The notes under the pieces were generated by a model, which did not search any database, had not been told where the DNA came from, and saw only the letters and a list, made by a program, of their open reading frames with translations. This document shows, in pieces, positions 1 through 61,585 of a DNA stretch of 64,000 bases. How positions within the stretch are numbered: position 1 is the stretch's first letter; every line of letters begins with the position of its first letter. The stretch lies in assembly GCA_016201435.1 (NCBI GenBank), contig JACQCT010000015.1, positions 1-64,000 on the forward strand, in the 5' to 3' direction. The stretch is from Nitrososphaerota archaeon. GTDB lineage: Archaea; Thermoproteota; Nitrososphaeria; Nitrososphaerales; Nitrosopumilaceae. Both the position numbers and the translations under genes were made by a program.

Positions 1-2369
1 CAGCAACAAACAAACTCAAAGTAGACGAAAGAATAAAAAATATTAAAAATTCTCTTCACGATGCAAAACTTTCACTTTCAAAAACAGAACAAGAAAGAAG
101 TGATGTTGCAAATAAAATACAACAAAATTCAACAACAATCAAGTCAATATTAGAACAAAAAGAAAAACTACTAAATCTTGAACAGAAATTAAAAATAATT
201 CGTGCTGGACACGAAGCCACCATAAAAGAATTAAAATCAAGACTGGCAAACATGTCTGAAAGAAAAGCAAAAATTGAAAAAGATGTTGAGGATACGACAT
301 TAATTTTAGAAAAAGCAAGTAAAGCAGCTGCTCAATATGAAGCAAAAATTAGAGTTGTCAAAGAAGTCATGCATGAGGATTATTCTATCGCAAAGCTCAA
401 AGAAGATTCTAAAAGACTGGGAATACTAGGCCTTGTTTATGAGATGCTCTCATGGGACAAACAATTTGAAAGACCAATACTTGCAGTAGGCTCTGATTGG
501 TTAAAGGCGCTTGTTGTAAATGACTTTGCTACTTTGCTTGGTCTTGCTGAATTTGCACAAGAAAAGAAACTTCCGAAAATACGTATTATACCACTAGATG
601 CCATTCCTAATTCAAAAATTTCTTTACCACAAGAACAAGGAATAGTTGGAGTGTTGTCTGATTACATAAAATGTGACGAAAAACTTATCGCTCTAAAGAA
701 TTTTATTTTTGGAAATATCATTCTAGTAAATTCAAACGAATCAGCATACATTTTATCCAAAAAAGGATTTAGAGCAGTAACTGTTGATGGACAATTCTTT
801 GAGGCAGATGCAAATGCTATAGTAGTTGATATTCACTCAAAAATTTCTAATCTCACCAAAATTATTCTTCTAAGTACATCTGTTGACGGTTTAGTTCAAT
901 CTCTAGATCTTTTGAAAAAATTCATTCAAAACAAAAAGACTCAGCTTAAAAAAATTGAAAGAATAACAAAAAGTCTAGACAATAGATATAATGCTTCTGA
1001 TACAGGGCTTGCAAATGTTGATTTGAGCTTTACAGATGCTAAAGCGAAACTAAAATCCATCTCGTCATCAGAAGAACAACTCATATCCAGAATTTCACAA
1101 CTTAAAAGACATGAAGAAAGTCTAAAAACGAACGCGGCAAAACTCGAATCTTACATTGCTTCTTTGGAAGAACGAGTTTTGATGACACAAGAAAACTATG
1201 CTGAGGAAGAACAGGCACGAATCGCATCTGCACTTACAGCATTGAATGAAAAAAAATCTGCCCTTCTGAGCACTGTGAACTCTATATCTACCCAATTCCG
1301 AGAACAAACATCTCAGCTTACCTTATTAACAAACGAGGAGGCTGGACTTAAATCAAATACGCGATTACTTTCTCAGGAACAATCCACACTTAATCACGAA
1401 AAATATGATCTTGAAGTAGAGTCACGATCACTTGCAAAAGAAAAGGAAAAAGTAGATCTCATATTGGTATCGTTAAGGGAGAAAGAACAACAGCTAATAT
1501 TGACTTCTGGAACGTCGGTTTCTGCACTCAAAGAATATGATGCAAAGCTAAAGGATTTGTATGATGGTGAAAAGGCAGTTACGAAGGAAATTAATAATTT
1601 TGAAAGGCAATCCGACTCTCTTTTACGTGATATCCGAGATCTTACTGAAAATGAAGTCAAGATACACGATACGCTTTCCTCATTTGGATACCAAGAAATC
1701 TTGGAAACTTTTGATGTAGATCAAATATTTGCAGCACTAGACTCAGAAAGAAAGACATTAAGTGGCTCTCTTAACACAAAATCTCCAGAGCAATACTTAG
1801 AGATTTCAGACGGTTATCGTTCCATGTCAACTCGTAAAAATGAACTTGAAGAGGAACGAAACTCTATAGTACAATTCATTGAAGAAGTTGATAAAAACAA
1901 GAGACAAACATTTTTGGAATCATATGACAAAGTAGACAAAGATATTCGCGAAGTTTTTCATAAAATGACAGGAGGAAACGCTTGGCTTGAAATACAAAAT
2001 GAAGATGACATATTTGCATCCGGACTGTCATTTCTCGTACAGTTCCCTGACAAGCAAAAAAGAGAATCTACATCAATTAGTGGTGGTGAAAAAACACTTG
2101 CAGCAATAACATTTCTTTTAGCATTACAGACATTAAAGCCATCGCCGTTTTATCTGCTTGATGAAGTAGATGCTCATCTTGATGCACTAAACACAGAACG
2201 ACTTGCAAAAATACTTGAAGAACGCGCTAAAGTAAGCCAGATGATTATGGTTTCATTAAAGGATTCTACTGTACAAAAAGCAAGTCTGATTTATGGTGTA
2301 TTCTCAAAGAATGGTGCTTCACAAGTAGTTTCGCACAAGATTTCAAATGTGCAACAAGTCGCCAATTAA
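1..2369 (+). CDS. smc: Chromosome segregation protein SMC, 3' part (5' end outside window)
   Basis: SMC ATPase that dimerises through a hinge and organises the chromosome. The reading frame is open from position 3, so the N-terminal Walker A domain lies before the window. Visible in order are coiled coil, a hinge of about 170 residues (GILGLVYEML onward, around bases 425-850), a long Glu/Lys/Leu/Ser-rich return coiled coil, and the C-terminal ATPase half with signature SISGGEKTLAA and Walker B FYLLDEVDAHLD followed by the D-loop. The first in-frame ATG (252) is internal and is not the true start. The stop overlaps the stop of the convergent ABC gene by 4 bases. An scpA/scpB neighbour is not visible here. 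Confidence 0.93.
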   Translation, partial: ATNKLKVDERIKNIKNSLHDAKLSLSKTEQERSDVANKIQQNSTTIKSILEQKEKLLNLEQKLKIIRAGHEATIKELKSRLANMSERKAKIEKDVEDTTLILEKASKAAAQYEAKIRVVKEVMHEDYSIAKLKEDSKRLGILGLVYEMLSWDKQFERPILAVGSDWLKALVVNDFATLLGLAEFAQEKKLPKIRIIPLDAIPNSKISLPQEQGIVGVLSDYIKCDEKLIALKNFIFGNIILVNSNESAYILSKKGFRAVTVDGQFFEADANAIVVDIHSKISNLTKIILLSTSVDGLVQSLDLLKKFIQNKKTQLKKIERITKSLDNRYNASDTGLANVDLSFTDAKAKLKSISSSEEQLISRISQLKRHEESLKTNAAKLESYIASLEERVLMTQENYAEEEQARIASALTALNEKKSALLSTVNSISTQFREQTSQLTLLTNEEAGLKSNTRLLSQEQSTLNHEKYDLEVESRSLAKEKEKVDLILVSLREKEQQLILTSGTSVSALKEYDAKLKDLYDGEKAVTKEINNFERQSDSLLRDIRDLTENEVKIHDTLSSFGYQEILETFDVDQIFAALDSERKTLSGSLNTKSPEQYLEISDGYRSMSTRKNELEEERNSIVQFIEEVDKNKRQTFLESYDKVDKDIREVFHKMTGGNAWLEIQNEDDIFASGLSFLVQFPDKQKRESTSISGGEKTLAAITFLLALQTLKPSPFYLLDEVDAHLDALNTERLAKILEERAKVSQMIMVSLKDSTVQKASLIYGVFSKNGASQVVSHKISNVQQVAN

Positions 2370-3331
2370 TTTATTTTTACAAAACATGCAGCAAGTCTAT
2401 CTTTCTCTACTTGTTCAAGAGGAGGTTCTTCTTTGCATTTTTCAATAGCATAAGGACATCTTGAACGAAATCGACAACCTTGATAGACATCAATATCTGA
2501 AGGTTCGTTGATTCTGATCTTTTTATCCTGATAAAGATTGTCTGGATTGGGTTCTGATATGGCATCTATGAGCGCCTGTGTATATGGGTGTCTTGGATGA
2601 GAAAGTACATCATTAATTGGACCTATTTCTACAATTTTCCCAAGGTACATGATAGCAATTCTTTGTCCTAGATAGCGCGCGGTGGACAAATCATGTGTGA
2701 TGTAAATATAGGATATTTCGCGTTTTTCTTGAAGTTCTCTCATTAGCTCTAGAATTTCAGCTCTTACAGAAACATCTAGCATTGATACTGGTTCGTCTGC
2801 AATGATTACCTTTGGCTTTGTAACTAACGCTCTTGCAAGAACTATTCTTTGTCTTTGACCGCCAGAAAGCATATGTGGATATTTTTCATAAATTGTTTCA
2901 GCAGGTTCAAGTCTAACTTCACGAAGTACATCTATTACCATTTTTTTTCTTTCTGCCATGGTTCCTATTTTATGAATTTGCAATGGTTCCATTATAATAT
3001 CAGAAACCTTCATCCTGGGGTTTATAGCTGCATAAGGATCCTGGTATATTATCTGACACTGCATTCTAAGCTTGTCTAGATTTCTACTTTCTCTGGTAAC
3101 TTCCACACCGTCAAAAAAGACGGTGCCAGAATCTGGTTCTGTTGCTCTAAGGATTAATCTGGACGTAGTAGTTTTACCTGATCCTGATTCTCCTGCTAAA
3201 ACGAGTACTTCGCCTTTTTTTAATGAAAAGGATATTCCATCAACCGCCCTGACTATTTTTGAAGAAGAAAAAATCCCTTTATTTGCAAAGTACTTGGTTA
3301 GGTTTTGTACTGAAAGAATCTCTTCCAACAT
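2366..3331 (-). CDS. Oligopeptide/dipeptide ABC transporter ATP-binding protein (DppF/OppF type)
   Basis: Cytoplasmic ATPase subunit of a peptide-type importer, 321 residues. Walker A is GESGSGKTT (about residues 47-55), the signature is LSGGQRQR, Walker B is VIIADEP with the following H-loop ITHD. The C-terminus carries the oligopeptide-family extension with the Cys pair GCRFRSRCPYAIEKC. The second ATPase of such transporters is encoded at 4395-5354 on the same strand, but a repeat protein on the other strand lies between them. No permease or substrate-binding protein is in the window, so the substrate (peptide, nickel or other) cannot be told. Confidence 0.9.
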   Translation of the reverse strand: MLEEILSVQNLTKYFANKGIFSSSKIVRAVDGISFSLKKGEVLVLAGESGSGKTTTSRLILRATEPDSGTVFFDGVEVTRESRNLDKLRMQCQIIYQDPYAAINPRMKVSDIIMEPLQIHKIGTMAERKKMVIDVLREVRLEPAETIYEKYPHMLSGGQRQRIVLARALVTKPKVIIADEPVSMLDVSVRAEILELMRELQEKREISYIYITHDLSTARYLGQRIAIMYLGKIVEIGPINDVLSHPRHPYTQALIDAISEPNPDNLYQDKKIRINEPSDIDVYQGCRFRSRCPYAIEKCKEEPPLEQVEKDRLAACFVKIN

Positions 3332-3411
3332 AGTACTAAGAAATTCGAATTATATCAAGCGATCATTATCGTAAAATCCTAGGTATCGCAAGGTTTTAAA
3401 ACCCATGAAAT

Positions 3412-4341
3412 ATGATAGAATTCGTGCAAAAAAAGATAGTAGCCGGTTTAATGATTATTGTAATGTTCGGTTTTAGTGGACAATACCTTGTTAATTTGGC
3501 ATCAGCTGATGATAGCCAAAGCACCATTCAACAGAATGCAGCTATTTCTGCTGCAAGAGCATTACTGAAATATTCTCATACCCATGCCTTGCCATTAGAT
3601 CAAGGTACTAAATATGCTGGATCTACAAATACTCCAACTGATGAAACTGTAAGACTCGACAGAAATGTCAACATTGCAAATGGTCACGTATACGCAGCTG
3701 CAAAGGGCATGACAATCTTTAGTGAGATTCATGTTTTGGGCTTGGACAAATTTTCTACAGGATATGCAGGTCTAACAAATACTCCTACTGATGAGACAGT
3801 GCATATTGATAGAAATACTCAGATGGCATTGGCAAGGGCACAAATGGACAAAAATAATTACAAAATAGCACTAGCATTAGCAAGTTTGAGTCCACACTAT
3901 GTTGGCATAAATCAAGTTTCAACAACTGATGAGACTGCACGAGACAGAAACGTATTGATTGCACAAGGAATAGCAACATTGGAGCAACAAAATGCTGATT
4001 TGGCTGCACAATTGGCAAGTTTGACTACAAACTATGCTGGTTCAACAAGTGTTTCAACTGATGAAAATGGACGAGACAGACAAGCATATATTGAAAAAAC
4101 TCTGGCAGATTCTGAAGCAAGAGCAATAGCATTACTTGATGAAATGAATGTAGTATCTGGACAACACTATGTTGGATTGGATAATACACAAACAACTGAT
4201 AGTAATGGAAGAGACAGAAATGTATTGATTGCACAAGGAATGGATGCAGTAAATCAAAAATTAGTAGGCTGTTATGATGCGGATCATCCAAGAACATGTA
4301 ATATAACTACTGGTGCAAACTACGCACAATACACACCATAA
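3412..4341 (+). CDS. Secreted protein with five 45-50 residue tandem repeats
   Basis: 309 residues, no recognised family. An N-terminal hydrophobic segment (residues 9-30) ending ASA-DD looks like a signal peptide. The mature part holds five copies of a unit beginning Y-[AV]-G at residues 68, 118, 163, 208 and 253, so the last four are spaced exactly 45 residues apart. The core reads roughly YxGxxxxxTDExxRDRN, rich in Asp, Thr and Arg, and is joined by Ala/Leu/Gln-rich stretches likely to be helical. Two Cys occur only near the C-terminus (CYDADHPRTC). The gene lies between two ABC ATPase genes on the other strand. A surface-layer or calcium-binding role is speculation. Confidence 0.8.
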   Translation: MIEFVQKKIVAGLMIIVMFGFSGQYLVNLASADDSQSTIQQNAAISAARALLKYSHTHALPLDQGTKYAGSTNTPTDETVRLDRNVNIANGHVYAAAKGMTIFSEIHVLGLDKFSTGYAGLTNTPTDETVHIDRNTQMALARAQMDKNNYKIALALASLSPHYVGINQVSTTDETARDRNVLIAQGIATLEQQNADLAAQLASLTTNYAGSTSVSTDENGRDRQAYIEKTLADSEARAIALLDEMNVVSGQHYVGLDNTQTTDSNGRDRNVLIAQGMDAVNQKLVGCYDADHPRTCNITTGANYAQYTP

Positions 4342-4394
4342 ATATTTTAAAAAATAATTTAATATTTTAAATAATTTAAAACGATGTCTTATCG

Positions 4395-5354
4395 TTAGAG
4401 TTTGTTAAAAATTGGAAATTGTTCATAAAGCCAGCACAAAACATATCCTGAATCTGTTTTTATTTTAGGGGGTTCCTTTATGCATTTTTCCATTGCATGC
4501 GGACATCTTTCATAGAATCTGCATCCTTGAGAGGGATTTATCAAACTAGGAGGATTTCCCATGATGAATTTTGGTTTCTTATTTTCTTTCAATGATGGTA
4601 TGGATTCAAGGAGACCTTGTGTGTACGGATGCTTTGGATTCTTGTAAATTTCAGACGAATTACCAAACTCAACTATTTTACCACCATACATGACTCCAGT
4701 TTTTTCAGCAATTTCAGATATTATTGACAAGTCATGCGTGATTAACATAATGCTCATTCCATCTTTTTTTAGTTTTTTTAGTAGACTGATAATCTGTGCT
4801 TGTACAAGCACATCTAACGCAGTTGTTGGTTCGTCAGCAATTACAAATTTTGGATTTAAAAGAAGCGCCATTGCAATAATGATCCTTTGTTTCATGCCTC
4901 CACTAAGCTCATGGGGAAATTTTTTTAATACTGAACTATTGAGACCAACAGAGATTAGAGTTTCAGAAGCTTTCGCACCAAAGTCACCTGTATAATTATG
5001 CTGTTTTAAAATTTCATATAATTGCTGTTCTATTGTAAACACGGGATCTAGTGAATTCATGGCTCCTTGAAAGATCATGGAGATTTCCTTCCATCTGTAT
5101 TTTTTTGTAAATTCTGATTCTGGTATTTTAATTATGGATTTGCCTTCCAATAATATGTCCCCTGAAACTACTTTGCCGCCTTGAAGTGATCTCATTATGG
5201 AAAGCCCAAGGGTGCTCTTTCCACACGCACTTTCGCCAGCAATTCCGACAGATTCGCCCTTTTCTAAAAAAAAACTTACATCATCTACTGCATGAACAAT
5301 ACCTGTTTGTGTCTTGTATTGTGTTTTAAGATCAGTTACAGAAATGTAATGCAT
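4395..5354 (-). CDS. Oligopeptide/dipeptide ABC transporter ATP-binding protein (DppD/OppD type)
   Basis: 319-residue ATPase subunit of a peptide-type ABC importer. Walker A is GESACGKST, the signature LSGGMKQR, Walker B FVIADEP and the H-loop ITHD. The C-terminal oligopeptide extension has GCRFYERCPHAMEKC. It complements the DppF-type subunit at 2366-3331. In this family the two ATPases work as a heterodimer on two permeases. Here the pair is split by an oppositely oriented repeat-protein gene and the permease genes are absent from the window. Confidence 0.9.
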   Translation of the reverse strand: MHYISVTDLKTQYKTQTGIVHAVDDVSFFLEKGESVGIAGESACGKSTLGLSIMRSLQGGKVVSGDILLEGKSIIKIPESEFTKKYRWKEISMIFQGAMNSLDPVFTIEQQLYEILKQHNYTGDFGAKASETLISVGLNSSVLKKFPHELSGGMKQRIIIAMALLLNPKFVIADEPTTALDVLVQAQIISLLKKLKKDGMSIMLITHDLSIISEIAEKTGVMYGGKIVEFGNSSEIYKNPKHPYTQGLLESIPSLKENKKPKFIMGNPPSLINPSQGCRFYERCPHAMEKCIKEPPKIKTDSGYVLCWLYEQFPIFNKL

Positions 5355-5439
5355 CGATCATTTTAGATCATTGAACTAAATGTGGGTTTTGGAAGAAGGG
5401 GTTATATTCTAGTTTTAGTAAGTTAAAAAACCGATTTAC

Positions 5440-35484: not shown

Positions 35485-36684
35485 ATGAAGATTAGCTTGA
35501 TAAAGATATTCTCAATTTTATTTGTATCTTCATTGATTTCATCGGTAATTTTGCCGGCATATGCTGAAGTCACATCCATTCAAACTAATGCTGCATTTTA
35601 CAAAGGAGGAAACCAGATTCATTTTTCTGGTACAACTGCACCAGGTGATTCACCATACGTTACAGTTGTAATCTATGATCCTAACAATAAATTTGTGCTT
35701 TTATCGTCTGGGATTGCAGATAGTAATAATGCATATCAAATCATAGTTGATACTAGCACTCAAAGTAATCAACCAAAGTTCTCACTCAAGGGAATTTACA
35801 ATGCCACTGCATTCATTATGAACCAGGCTGCTGGCAAAACCATATCTTTTGTTTTCTCACCAGATGGCTCGCCAATCATTCCGCTTTCCCCAACTAACCT
35901 AAAAGCAATTCCTTATTCTTCCACAGAAATTGATCTTAGCTGGTCAGCCCCTACAATGAATGGAGGCTCGTCAATAACAGGATATCAAATTGAAAGAGAT
36001 GGTGGAAATGGGTTTAATGTAATTAAAAACAGTGCAACGATAACATATTCAGATACCGGATTAATTCCAAGTAAACAATACTCCTATAGAGTCTCGGCAA
36101 TAAACTCTGCAGGTACAAGTAATCCATCTAATGTGGTATACGCTACAACAACATCTGTACCAGTACAAACTATCCCACAGAATTCATCTGTGACATCAAC
36201 ACAAAATAATACTGGAACTACACAAACCACTAATGCTCAAGCAATTTATGAGGAAATTCAAAAAAGAATTGAAAATGCAAAACGATTACAACAGTTAATG
36301 CAAGCAAAATCTAAGGCAATCTCATTGAATGAAAATATGAATCTTGTAGTTTCTATTGGTAATCCTTCTACATCTAATATGGGAACAATATTTGAAAATA
36401 AATCATTATCAGTTGATTTTAATAATATTCTGTATCCTCTGATTGCTTTAGCTGGCGCGGGTGTAATTGTTGCAGTTCTCTATACAAAGAAAAATAAACT
36501 TTGGTTTAATTCTGATTTCAAACCAATAAATGAACAGATAGACGATTCCATGAAATATGTAGAAAAAGCTGATGATTTTGTAGAAGAAGATTATTCACTT
36601 ATGATTCTAAAAAATAGACTTGCCAAAGGAGAAATAACAATTGAAGAATTTAACAGACTAAAAGATGCTCTTAAAGAACCCTAG
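35485..36684 (+). CDS. Surface protein with fibronectin type III domain, TM helix and C-terminal SHOCT-like tail
   Basis: 399 residues. A signal peptide (1-27, ending AYA), a beta domain of about 100 residues, one FN3 domain (about 133-222; PLSPTNLKAIPYSSTEIDLSWS ... YSYRVSAINSAGTSNPS), a Thr/Gln-rich linker, a short helix, a TM segment (about 315-335) and a cytoplasmic tail ending LKNRLAKGEITIEEFNRLKDAL, which is a SHOCT module. The extracellular part probably binds surface ligands while the tail mediates oligomerisation. The combination is typical of archaeal membrane proteins of unknown role. Confidence 0.75.
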   Translation: MKISLIKIFSILFVSSLISSVILPAYAEVTSIQTNAAFYKGGNQIHFSGTTAPGDSPYVTVVIYDPNNKFVLLSSGIADSNNAYQIIVDTSTQSNQPKFSLKGIYNATAFIMNQAAGKTISFVFSPDGSPIIPLSPTNLKAIPYSSTEIDLSWSAPTMNGGSSITGYQIERDGGNGFNVIKNSATITYSDTGLIPSKQYSYRVSAINSAGTSNPSNVVYATTTSVPVQTIPQNSSVTSTQNNTGTTQTTNAQAIYEEIQKRIENAKRLQQLMQAKSKAISLNENMNLVVSIGNPSTSNMGTIFENKSLSVDFNNILYPLIALAGAGVIVAVLYTKKNKLWFNSDFKPINEQIDDSMKYVEKADDFVEEDYSLMILKNRLAKGEITIEEFNRLKDALKEP

Positions 36685-56326: not shown

Positions 56327-57382
56327 ATGAGAACATTATCCGTTGTAGCCATATTCATCATATTCATATTATCTGTCTATAATTATCATCAATCATTTAC
56401 ACTGGTAGAAGGTTTTCAACGAACTGATTTCAAGCTAATCCATAGTCCAACCATATGTGCAGTAGAACCATTACCAGATCCGAACTTTCATTCAATTGGA
56501 AATCGCATGCTTACTCAAACCGAATATGCTGTAATTGATTGGGCTACAAAATTAAATACTTCGTTAGGAACATCTGCAAGCCATACCCCCATATGGAAAA
56601 TATCACTTGTCAAAGTTTTTCTTTGGCAACAAAAAACATTTGATTATTCAAATTGCGATATTATCATTAATTATAAAGAAAAACCTGATGATTCAAAATT
56701 ACAAACTGAGATAGGAGGAATAACACAATATGACTATGAACATCATAAATCTACAATTGAGATTTATTATTTGCAAGTTAATGTGAATGCAATACAAAAT
56801 GAAACTCGTGATGCAAATTACATCTATACCACTACGAACTGGGTGCCATATTATACCGGTTATGCATTAGGTGATGCACAACTTGGAATGATTATACGCC
56901 ATGAAATTGGGCATGCACTAGGGTTAGGTCATTTTTTTTCAGATAATCCGACAGATCTATCAGGATGGATACATGGTGAAGTAAGTCTTCCATCAATTAT
57001 GATTCCGGTTGTTATTGCAATAGGGAATTCACATTTTGATATAACGCCATATGACATATACGAAATCAAATTAATCTATGGTAACAATGGGTTTGGTAAC
57101 TTGTCTGTACAAAACACTACATTAATCCCAGACTGGATTAAAACTAGTGCTGGAGGATGGGCCAAAGGTTCGCTTGCAGATGATGATTTTATTAAAGGAT
57201 TACAATATCTTGTAAAACAAAAAATCATAAATGATACTTCAATAGATTCTACATCGCCTTTTACACAAATTCCATCATGGATAAAAAATAATGCCCGATG
57301 GTGGTCAGACAATCAGATATCTGATGATGAATTTGTAAAAGGGATTCAATATCTGATTCAATATGGTATGATTAAAATCTAA
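56327..57382 (+). CDS. Secreted metzincin-type metalloprotease with two C-terminal repeats
   Basis: 351 residues. A signal peptide or N-terminal anchor (residues 1-20), then a protease domain whose zinc site is H192-E-I-G-H196-ALGLG-H202, the metzincin signature, followed by IMIPV as possible Met-turn. Two 36-residue repeats at about 267 and 315 share IPxWIKxxAxxW..x(I/L)xDDxFxKGxQYLxxxxxI, a module common on thaumarchaeal exported proteins and probably used for surface attachment. Confidence 0.82.
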   Translation: MRTLSVVAIFIIFILSVYNYHQSFTLVEGFQRTDFKLIHSPTICAVEPLPDPNFHSIGNRMLTQTEYAVIDWATKLNTSLGTSASHTPIWKISLVKVFLWQQKTFDYSNCDIIINYKEKPDDSKLQTEIGGITQYDYEHHKSTIEIYYLQVNVNAIQNETRDANYIYTTTNWVPYYTGYALGDAQLGMIIRHEIGHALGLGHFFSDNPTDLSGWIHGEVSLPSIMIPVVIAIGNSHFDITPYDIYEIKLIYGNNGFGNLSVQNTTLIPDWIKTSAGGWAKGSLADDDFIKGLQYLVKQKIINDTSIDSTSPFTQIPSWIKNNARWWSDNQISDDEFVKGIQYLIQYGMIKI

Positions 57383-60917: not shown

Positions 60918-61286
60918 TTATTTCTGTTTTTGTTTTTCCAAGTCTTTTTTTAATACGGCGTTTTCTTTTTTTAGTTGCTCGTTTTCGACTTGAAGTGCAT
61001 TAATAGAATTTACTCCTTTATGCATAGGGTGTGATGGACCAAATTGGTTTGGTGCTAAATCAAAAAGCCCAGCTGCATATTGTTGGAACATTGTGTAAAA
61101 ATCCGATAATCTTTCAAGCATTAGTGAATTGTCTCGAATTATGTTGTCTTTCAGCTTACCGGTCATAGTTATGCCACGAGGATGATTTGCCATTGGAGGT
61201 AAACGTGGAAATGCAAATGGACTATTTACCATGTTTTGATATTGATTGTAAAACTCTAACATTTTTTTTGTATCCATATTCCACAT
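60918..61286 (-). CDS. Coiled-coil hypothetical protein
   Basis: 122 residues (an ATG three codons in, at 61277, is an alternative start). A helical, Met/Phe/Pro-rich N-terminal part and a C-terminal coiled coil (ALQVENEQLKKENAVLKKDLEKQK). A phasin- or PhaE-like role could be imagined from size and layout, but no diagnostic motif supports it. Confidence 0.6.
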   Translation of the reverse strand: MWNMDTKKMLEFYNQYQNMVNSPFAFPRLPPMANHPRGITMTGKLKDNIIRDNSLMLERLSDFYTMFQQYAAGLFDLAPNQFGPSHPMHKGVNSINALQVENEQLKKENAVLKKDLEKQKQK

Positions 61287-61355: not shown

Positions 61356-61399
61356 GGTTGTCAACCGGCGATCATTTTTTATCAAGATCAGCTGATCGC
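61356..61399. repeat. Cluster of overlapping palindromes in a divergent promoter region
   Basis: GGTTGTCAACC (61356-61366), GCGATCA ... TGATCGC (61368-61374 / 61393-61399), and the perfect 12-base palindrome GATCAGCTGATC (61386-61397). They lie between the minus-strand coiled-coil gene and a small plus-strand zinc protein; binding sites or a foldable leader are possible. Confidence 0.45.
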
Positions 61400-61435: not shown

Positions 61436-61585
61436 ATGACAAAAACAATATCTATGTGTTGTATAAAATGTAAAAAAAATATACTTTCAACTGATTTGTA
61501 CAAAATTGTAATGTACGTTGTTGGTGAAAAGTTTACCGATCATCATTATGAGCACATTGAATGCCCTGATAATTTTACAATTTAA
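61436..61585 (+). CDS. Cys/His microprotein
   Basis: 49 residues, MTKTISMCCIKCKKNI ... DHHYEHIECPDNF. CCxxC, three His and a last Cys make a likely zinc site. It overlaps the cyclase gene's stop by 4 bases on the other strand. Function unknown. Confidence 0.5.
   Translation: MTKTISMCCIKCKKNILSTDLYKIVMYVVGEKFTDHHYEHIECPDNFTI

Follow-up and report, generated by a model that had tools for sequence, protein, structure and literature searches.

The window analysed here, a stretch of 64,000 nucleotides from a Nitrososphaerota archaeon, carries near its left end a 309-aa ORF at 3412-4341 on the forward strand, which the ORF list of the window contains just as the initial annotation described it. 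The source genome encodes an amoA of archaeal type, indicating that the organism is an ammonia-oxidising archaeon. The ORF, hereafter the repeat gene, was reported to lie between two ABC importer ATPase genes, and domain matches confirmed that both neighbors are of the Opp/Dpp type, with the repeat gene on the strand opposite to both. Features of the locus are collected in Table 1.

Table 1. Features of the repeat-gene locus, in window coordinates
Feature	Position	Strand	Remarks
smc-like gene (3' part), conserved neighbor	3..2369	+	ORF; order kept in relatives
oppF-type ABC ATPase gene	2366..3331	-	divergent from repeat gene; PF00005 2.3e-32, PF08352 1.9e-19
Half-site GCGATCA	3359..3365	+	conserved upstream element
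ATCGCAAGGTTTTAAAA: second half-site ATCGC, BRE-like stretch, TATA-like box	3385..3401	+	15-mer conservation
Repeat-protein gene	3424..4341	+	GTG 3424 as probable true start (305 aa); ATG 3412 of the initial annotation (309 aa)
Signal peptide	3424..3507	+	cleavage expected after ASA, before DD
Unit 1	3613..3762	+	residues 68-117, 50 aa
Unit 2	3763..3897	+	residues 118-162, 45 aa
Unit 3	3898..4032	+	residues 163-207, 45 aa; swaps sequence with unit 5
Unit 4	4033..4167	+	residues 208-252, 45 aa
Unit 5 and C-terminal tail	4168..4338	+	residues 253-309
oppD-type ABC ATPase gene	4395..5354	-	convergent with repeat gene; PF00005 2.8e-24, PF08352 3.3e-22

Translation probably starts at GTG 3424 and not at ATG 3412. 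The center of the TATA-like box (3397.5) lies 26.5 nt before the GTG as against 14.5 nt before the ATG and, judged by the usual archaeal TATA-to-start distance, this spacing makes leaderless initiation at GTG 3424 likely. A GTG also stands at the homologous place in aligned relatives of both genera that carry the gene, and it is the start codon position in the second genus. A rough count over the window's remaining genes showed only slight TATA enrichment at the matching distance. Within the genus the repeat gene has a dN/dS of 0.16-0.44, showing that it is under purifying selection and encodes a real, selected protein, which in its mature form is acidic (pI 4.6-5.9).

Export of the repeat protein is well supported by inspection of its sequence, which begins with a putative signal peptide of the Sec type that closes with a conserved A|DD. 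Among 25 relatives, also compared by inspection, the hydrophobic N terminus is conserved, A32 is invariant and D33 and D34 are nearly so. The only strong hydropathy peak falls on the signal peptide; in the mature part, hydropathy over 19 residues peaks at 1.1. The description of the protein as an exported surface protein thus held for export, but the sequence offers no membrane or wall anchor to go with the surface part: it has no lipobox cysteine, no sorting motif and no further membrane segment, at the C terminus or elsewhere. A surface location is plausible and, with no anchor visible, the protein could also be fully secreted. N-glycosylation sites are not enriched in the repeat proteins, and in those of the window's genus they fall below expectation.

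The mature protein contains the five units beginning with Y[AV]G that had been proposed (Y68, Y118, Y163, Y208 and Y253), followed by a C-terminal tail that holds two Cys in the window's genus. The accompanying claim of a strict 45-residue period did not survive, since the units are spaced by 50, 45, 45 and 45 residues and the strongest self-offset is 90 residues. This offset scored 0.115 per residue, compared with a peak of -0.018 among 500 shuffles, and the offset of 45 scored -0.035, below that shuffle maximum. The closest unit pairs in the window protein are 3-5 and 1-2; in a relative from the second genus (L007) they are 2-5 and 1-4, and the strongest period in that genus is consequently 137-150. 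A profile made solely from units of the window's genus reached up to 43.8 bits on the second-genus proteins (shuffles ≤2.5) and mostly matched four or five units per protein, with units 1 and 4 scoring low, showing that the repeat is real beyond chance. Members of the family normally have five units, and in some relatives unit 4 carries insertions. TRF detected no tandem array at the DNA level, indicating that the units are old.

Each unit consists of a conserved loop of ~18 residues, [YW]xGL...T[DN][ES]..(D)RN, followed by a long helix of ~20-37 residues that is placed by structure models. Across the 25 relatives every one of the five loops has an invariant Thr, those of units 2, 3 and 5 also have an invariant Arg, and the aromatic residue leading the loop is nearly always Tyr or Trp. 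An AlphaFold2 model of the mature full-length protein (3-row alignment; pLDDT 35.5, pTM 0.28) predicted helices at mature residues 2-24, 46-82, 101-125, 146-175, 190-212 and 236-241. Prediction of two consecutive units, which the initial annotation had put forward as a check, likewise returned two long helices, in a model that was itself weak (6 rows, pLDDT 64.8). Both models, too weak to support a fold search, nevertheless put a long helix behind every loop, and a helix-loop fold is the arrangement they suggest. Helix 3 alone shows clear amphipathic periodicity, with 4 of 200 shuffles as high, and helix 4 is suggestive (21 of 200); a description of the protein as having clear amphipathic helices throughout was dropped in favor of helix 3 and perhaps helix 4.

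Units 3 and 5 exchange sequence. In two genes, the 66-nt cores of these two units are 94-95% identical at the DNA level within the gene; between genomes, a given unit averages 74-80% identity. This pattern points to intragenic recombination or gene conversion. A relative in the window's genus (G234, L062:5737-6396, minus strand) encodes a 219-aa version in an open frame with three units, two units being missing in frame, which could instead be an assembly collapse.

Adhesins commonly show repeats and unit exchange. Together with the T-D-E and D-R-N motifs at many loop positions, these traits would fit an adhesin, or a metal-binding protein of the cell surface, in which calcium is bound by acidic loops. 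The initial annotation had indeed singled out the Asp-rich core for a calcium-binding test. The conservation pattern, read from the sequences, gives this idea no support: the invariant or near-invariant loop residues are the aromatic, Thr and Arg, while the usually acidic residues after the Thr and before the Arg are replaced in several units by Asn, Ser, Thr or Gly. The protein also matches no EF-hand or other calcium-binding family and has no cell-wall or membrane anchor, and we regard an adhesive or calcium-binding role as quite unlikely.

No known repeat family accommodates the unit, in agreement with the earlier impression that it was new. The window protein had no Pfam or NCBIfam match above the curated cut-offs. 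The best E values among the 25 relatives were 0.0071 for Pfam and 5e-4 for NCBIfam, each in one member only, and a profile of the 25 members matched no PDB chain at E 1. Confident placement of the unit in a known repeat family was the outcome that the initial annotation said would overturn its claim, and the profile searches left the claim standing. As far as sequence comparison reaches, then, the repeat family is absent from the Pfam, NCBIfam and PDB catalogues. In general build the protein resembles helical tandem-repeat proteins, a class that includes TPR, spectrin-type and similar proteins, in which short repeats likewise contain helices joined by conserved loops. What sets it apart is a ~45-residue unit that pairs a single long helix with a [YW]xGL..T[DN]E..RN loop, and no Pfam profile of such a family matches it.

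The phage family PHROG_25153, to which no function is assigned, gave weak matches to 5 of the 25 relatives (best E 0.00022), whereas the window protein had no PHROG match at E 0.1. A tblastn search with one relative against 50,697 phage records returned nothing, and a scan of viral contigs found no relative. The PHROG_25153 matches are probably a composition effect, and a virus or phage origin was rejected, the phage records and viral contigs having yielded no relative.

Two further exported proteins bear some likeness to the repeat family. One is a 166-aa protein (G209, L078:1325-1825, minus strand) with a signal peptide and two diverged units whose loops read YGNLNYTTAGQSTKDRN and YEQFNYTSTNES. 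It matches the unit profile at E 2.2e-5 and is likely a diverged paralogue, differing from the repeat protein in having two units only, in lying at another locus and in occurring in one genome only. The other is a highly charged 157-aa protein (G022, L077:1413-1886, minus strand) with ~45-residue repeats of its own (AHEKTAHEMEAY..., SHEKTVRELKPY...); its build is similar, and it is not clearly related to the repeat family.

The family profile found the repeat protein in all five genomes of the window's genus and in 32 of the 37 genomes of a second genus (g16), as a rule in one copy, with a protein identity of ~30% between the two genera. In a 300-genome sample of the class there was nothing confident outside these two genera; a match in genus g10 (E 5e-5) was not counted, being weak and confined to the half with the signal peptide in a protein of different architecture. 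The second genus, which comprises many species and includes a closed genome of 1.81 Mb, is probably Nitrosotalea. A Nitrosotalea-specific core of 103 gene families has been described, many of them without homologues and most of them expressed (PMC5767755), and the repeat gene may be among these families. A search of the literature, which covered sources other than the supplementary tables of that core-genome paper, found the protein named nowhere.

The order oppF-repeat gene-oppD is kept in 28 of 31 loci, with smc beyond oppF wherever the flank reaches it; in the remaining three loci a contig end cuts the arrangement or oppF has moved. Two close genera, g10 and g19, have oppF and oppD ~50-60 bp apart with no gene between them, and in the other genera examined there was no oppF beside oppD within the stretch read. 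An OppD tree resolved no order among g1, g10 with g19, g16 and the rest. These data are compatible with a single origin of the repeat gene without establishing it.

A second version of the smc-oppF-repeat-oppD locus is present in the same assembly on contig C15 (G000:C15:80001-100000, L059), where the proteins are 87-94% identical to those of window positions 1-5400. The contamination estimate of the assembly is 8.86%, and this locus most likely belongs to a second strain. A paralogous origin was rejected on the basis of this estimate and of the duplication of the whole locus, smc included.

Upstream of the repeat gene, at 3358-3400, lies an element of the form [AG]GCGATCA-N18/19-ATCGCAA-RG-TTTTAAA that is kept across both genera. 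The 15-mer TCGCAARGTTTTAAA within it recurs exactly upstream of the repeat gene in 27 of 31 homologous loci from the two genera, and it is the sole such site in the window even when 3 mismatches are allowed; the whole-element pattern matches 27/31 loci as well, with spacers of 17-19. When 250 genomes were searched with GCGATCA-N17..20-ATCGC, the pattern was found 30-40 bp upstream of the repeat gene in 29 of 37 carriers (25 of 32 carrying g16 genomes and 4 of 5 in the window's genus), and this match was nearly always the only one in that genome. The two half-sites are inverted, and in the window's genus the left one sits beside a TATA-like stretch facing oppF. This left half-site probably serves the repeat gene itself, since it persists in the roughly half of g16 in which 170-240 bp or more separate oppF from the repeat gene. 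Because the site is so specific, it could be used to fish out the regulator.

The source genome holds one other match to this pattern apart from repeat-gene promoters, a perfect inverted repeat GCGATCA-N18-TGATCGC at 61368-61399, between an ORF at 60918-61286 (minus strand) and a small ORF starting at 61436 (plus strand). It was rejected as a further member of a regulon, the pattern search having found no counterpart in the other genomes of the genus.

The position of the repeat gene raises the idea that its product is an accessory part of an Opp-type peptide importer, delivering peptides outside the membrane or tuning the transporter, and kept with the ATPase genes for co-regulation. Retention of the gene in the oppF-oppD interval in two genera is consistent with this, as is the divergent promoter region that it shares with oppF in the window's genus and in part of the other. 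The distribution of the parts argues against it. The importer's SBP_bac_5 protein and both permeases (BPD_transp_1) are encoded together at another locus, on contig C61, so that location alone does not make the repeat protein a transport component, nor is it the importer's binding protein. It has no SBP_bac_5 or permease domain. Of the family's 250 genomes, 234 have an OppD-type match, as against 37 with confidence (37-38) for the repeat protein, which is missing from most genera that have OppD. In addition, the gene runs opposite to both ATPase genes, the close genera with adjacent oppF and oppD do without it, and the upstream element stays with the repeat gene where oppF is distant. An importer accessory is therefore an unlikely identity for the repeat protein.

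The dedicated, nearly gene-specific element could also mark a stress or chaperone-like extracytoplasmic protein of soil archaea, induced through that element by, for example, low pH or envelope stress. Confinement to two genera, one of them probably the acidophilic Nitrosotalea, would suit such a protein, but within the window's genus one genome is of lake origin (PowLak16), at odds with a purely acid-soil role. A stress function seems improbable to us.

We instead favor, at roughly even odds, a soluble, helical and modular envelope protein that is lineage-specific, exported by Sec and engaged in structural or binding work. A conserved promoter of its own would drive the gene divergently from oppF, the mRNA probably being leaderless, and the product would lose its signal peptide on Sec export. 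The mature protein would then comprise an N-terminal helix followed by the five loop-plus-helix units and would most likely reside under the S-layer or be held by it. Its repeated loops would offer five similar contact sites, so that the protein could serve the envelope as a modular spacer or a scaffold for binding, and the units would swap sequence by recombination inside the gene. The repeat, the export signal, the distribution of the family, its fixed synteny, purifying selection, unit exchange and the conserved promoter element are observed, and the helix-loop fold (from low-confidence models), the location outside the membrane and the scaffold or binding role are inferred.

More tentatively, and with somewhat less than even confidence, these features may be drawn together as a modular, recombining component of the envelope built on a new loop-helix repeat fold. 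It would be restricted to two genera of ammonia-oxidising archaea, be driven by a nearly gene-specific regulatory site and have been inserted in an ancestor between the two ATPase genes of a peptide importer. The envelope of ammonia-oxidising archaea is the layer through which ammonia and metals enter, and little is known of its content. A conserved, exported repeat protein with a promoter element of its own, carried by nearly every member of two genera and by no other genus, is a lineage marker and a testable candidate for a lineage-specific part of this envelope.

Elsewhere in the window, two other exported proteins were observed. An exported matrixin/M66-like metalloprotease (HEIGHALGLGH) is encoded at 56327-57382 on the plus strand and carries at its C terminus two W-rich repeats of ~48 residues, PxWIKxxAxWWxxGxIxDxEFxxGIQYL, for which Pfam gave no match. 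The second, at 35485-36684 on the plus strand, combines a fibronectin type III domain with a C-terminal membrane segment and a SHOCT-like end.
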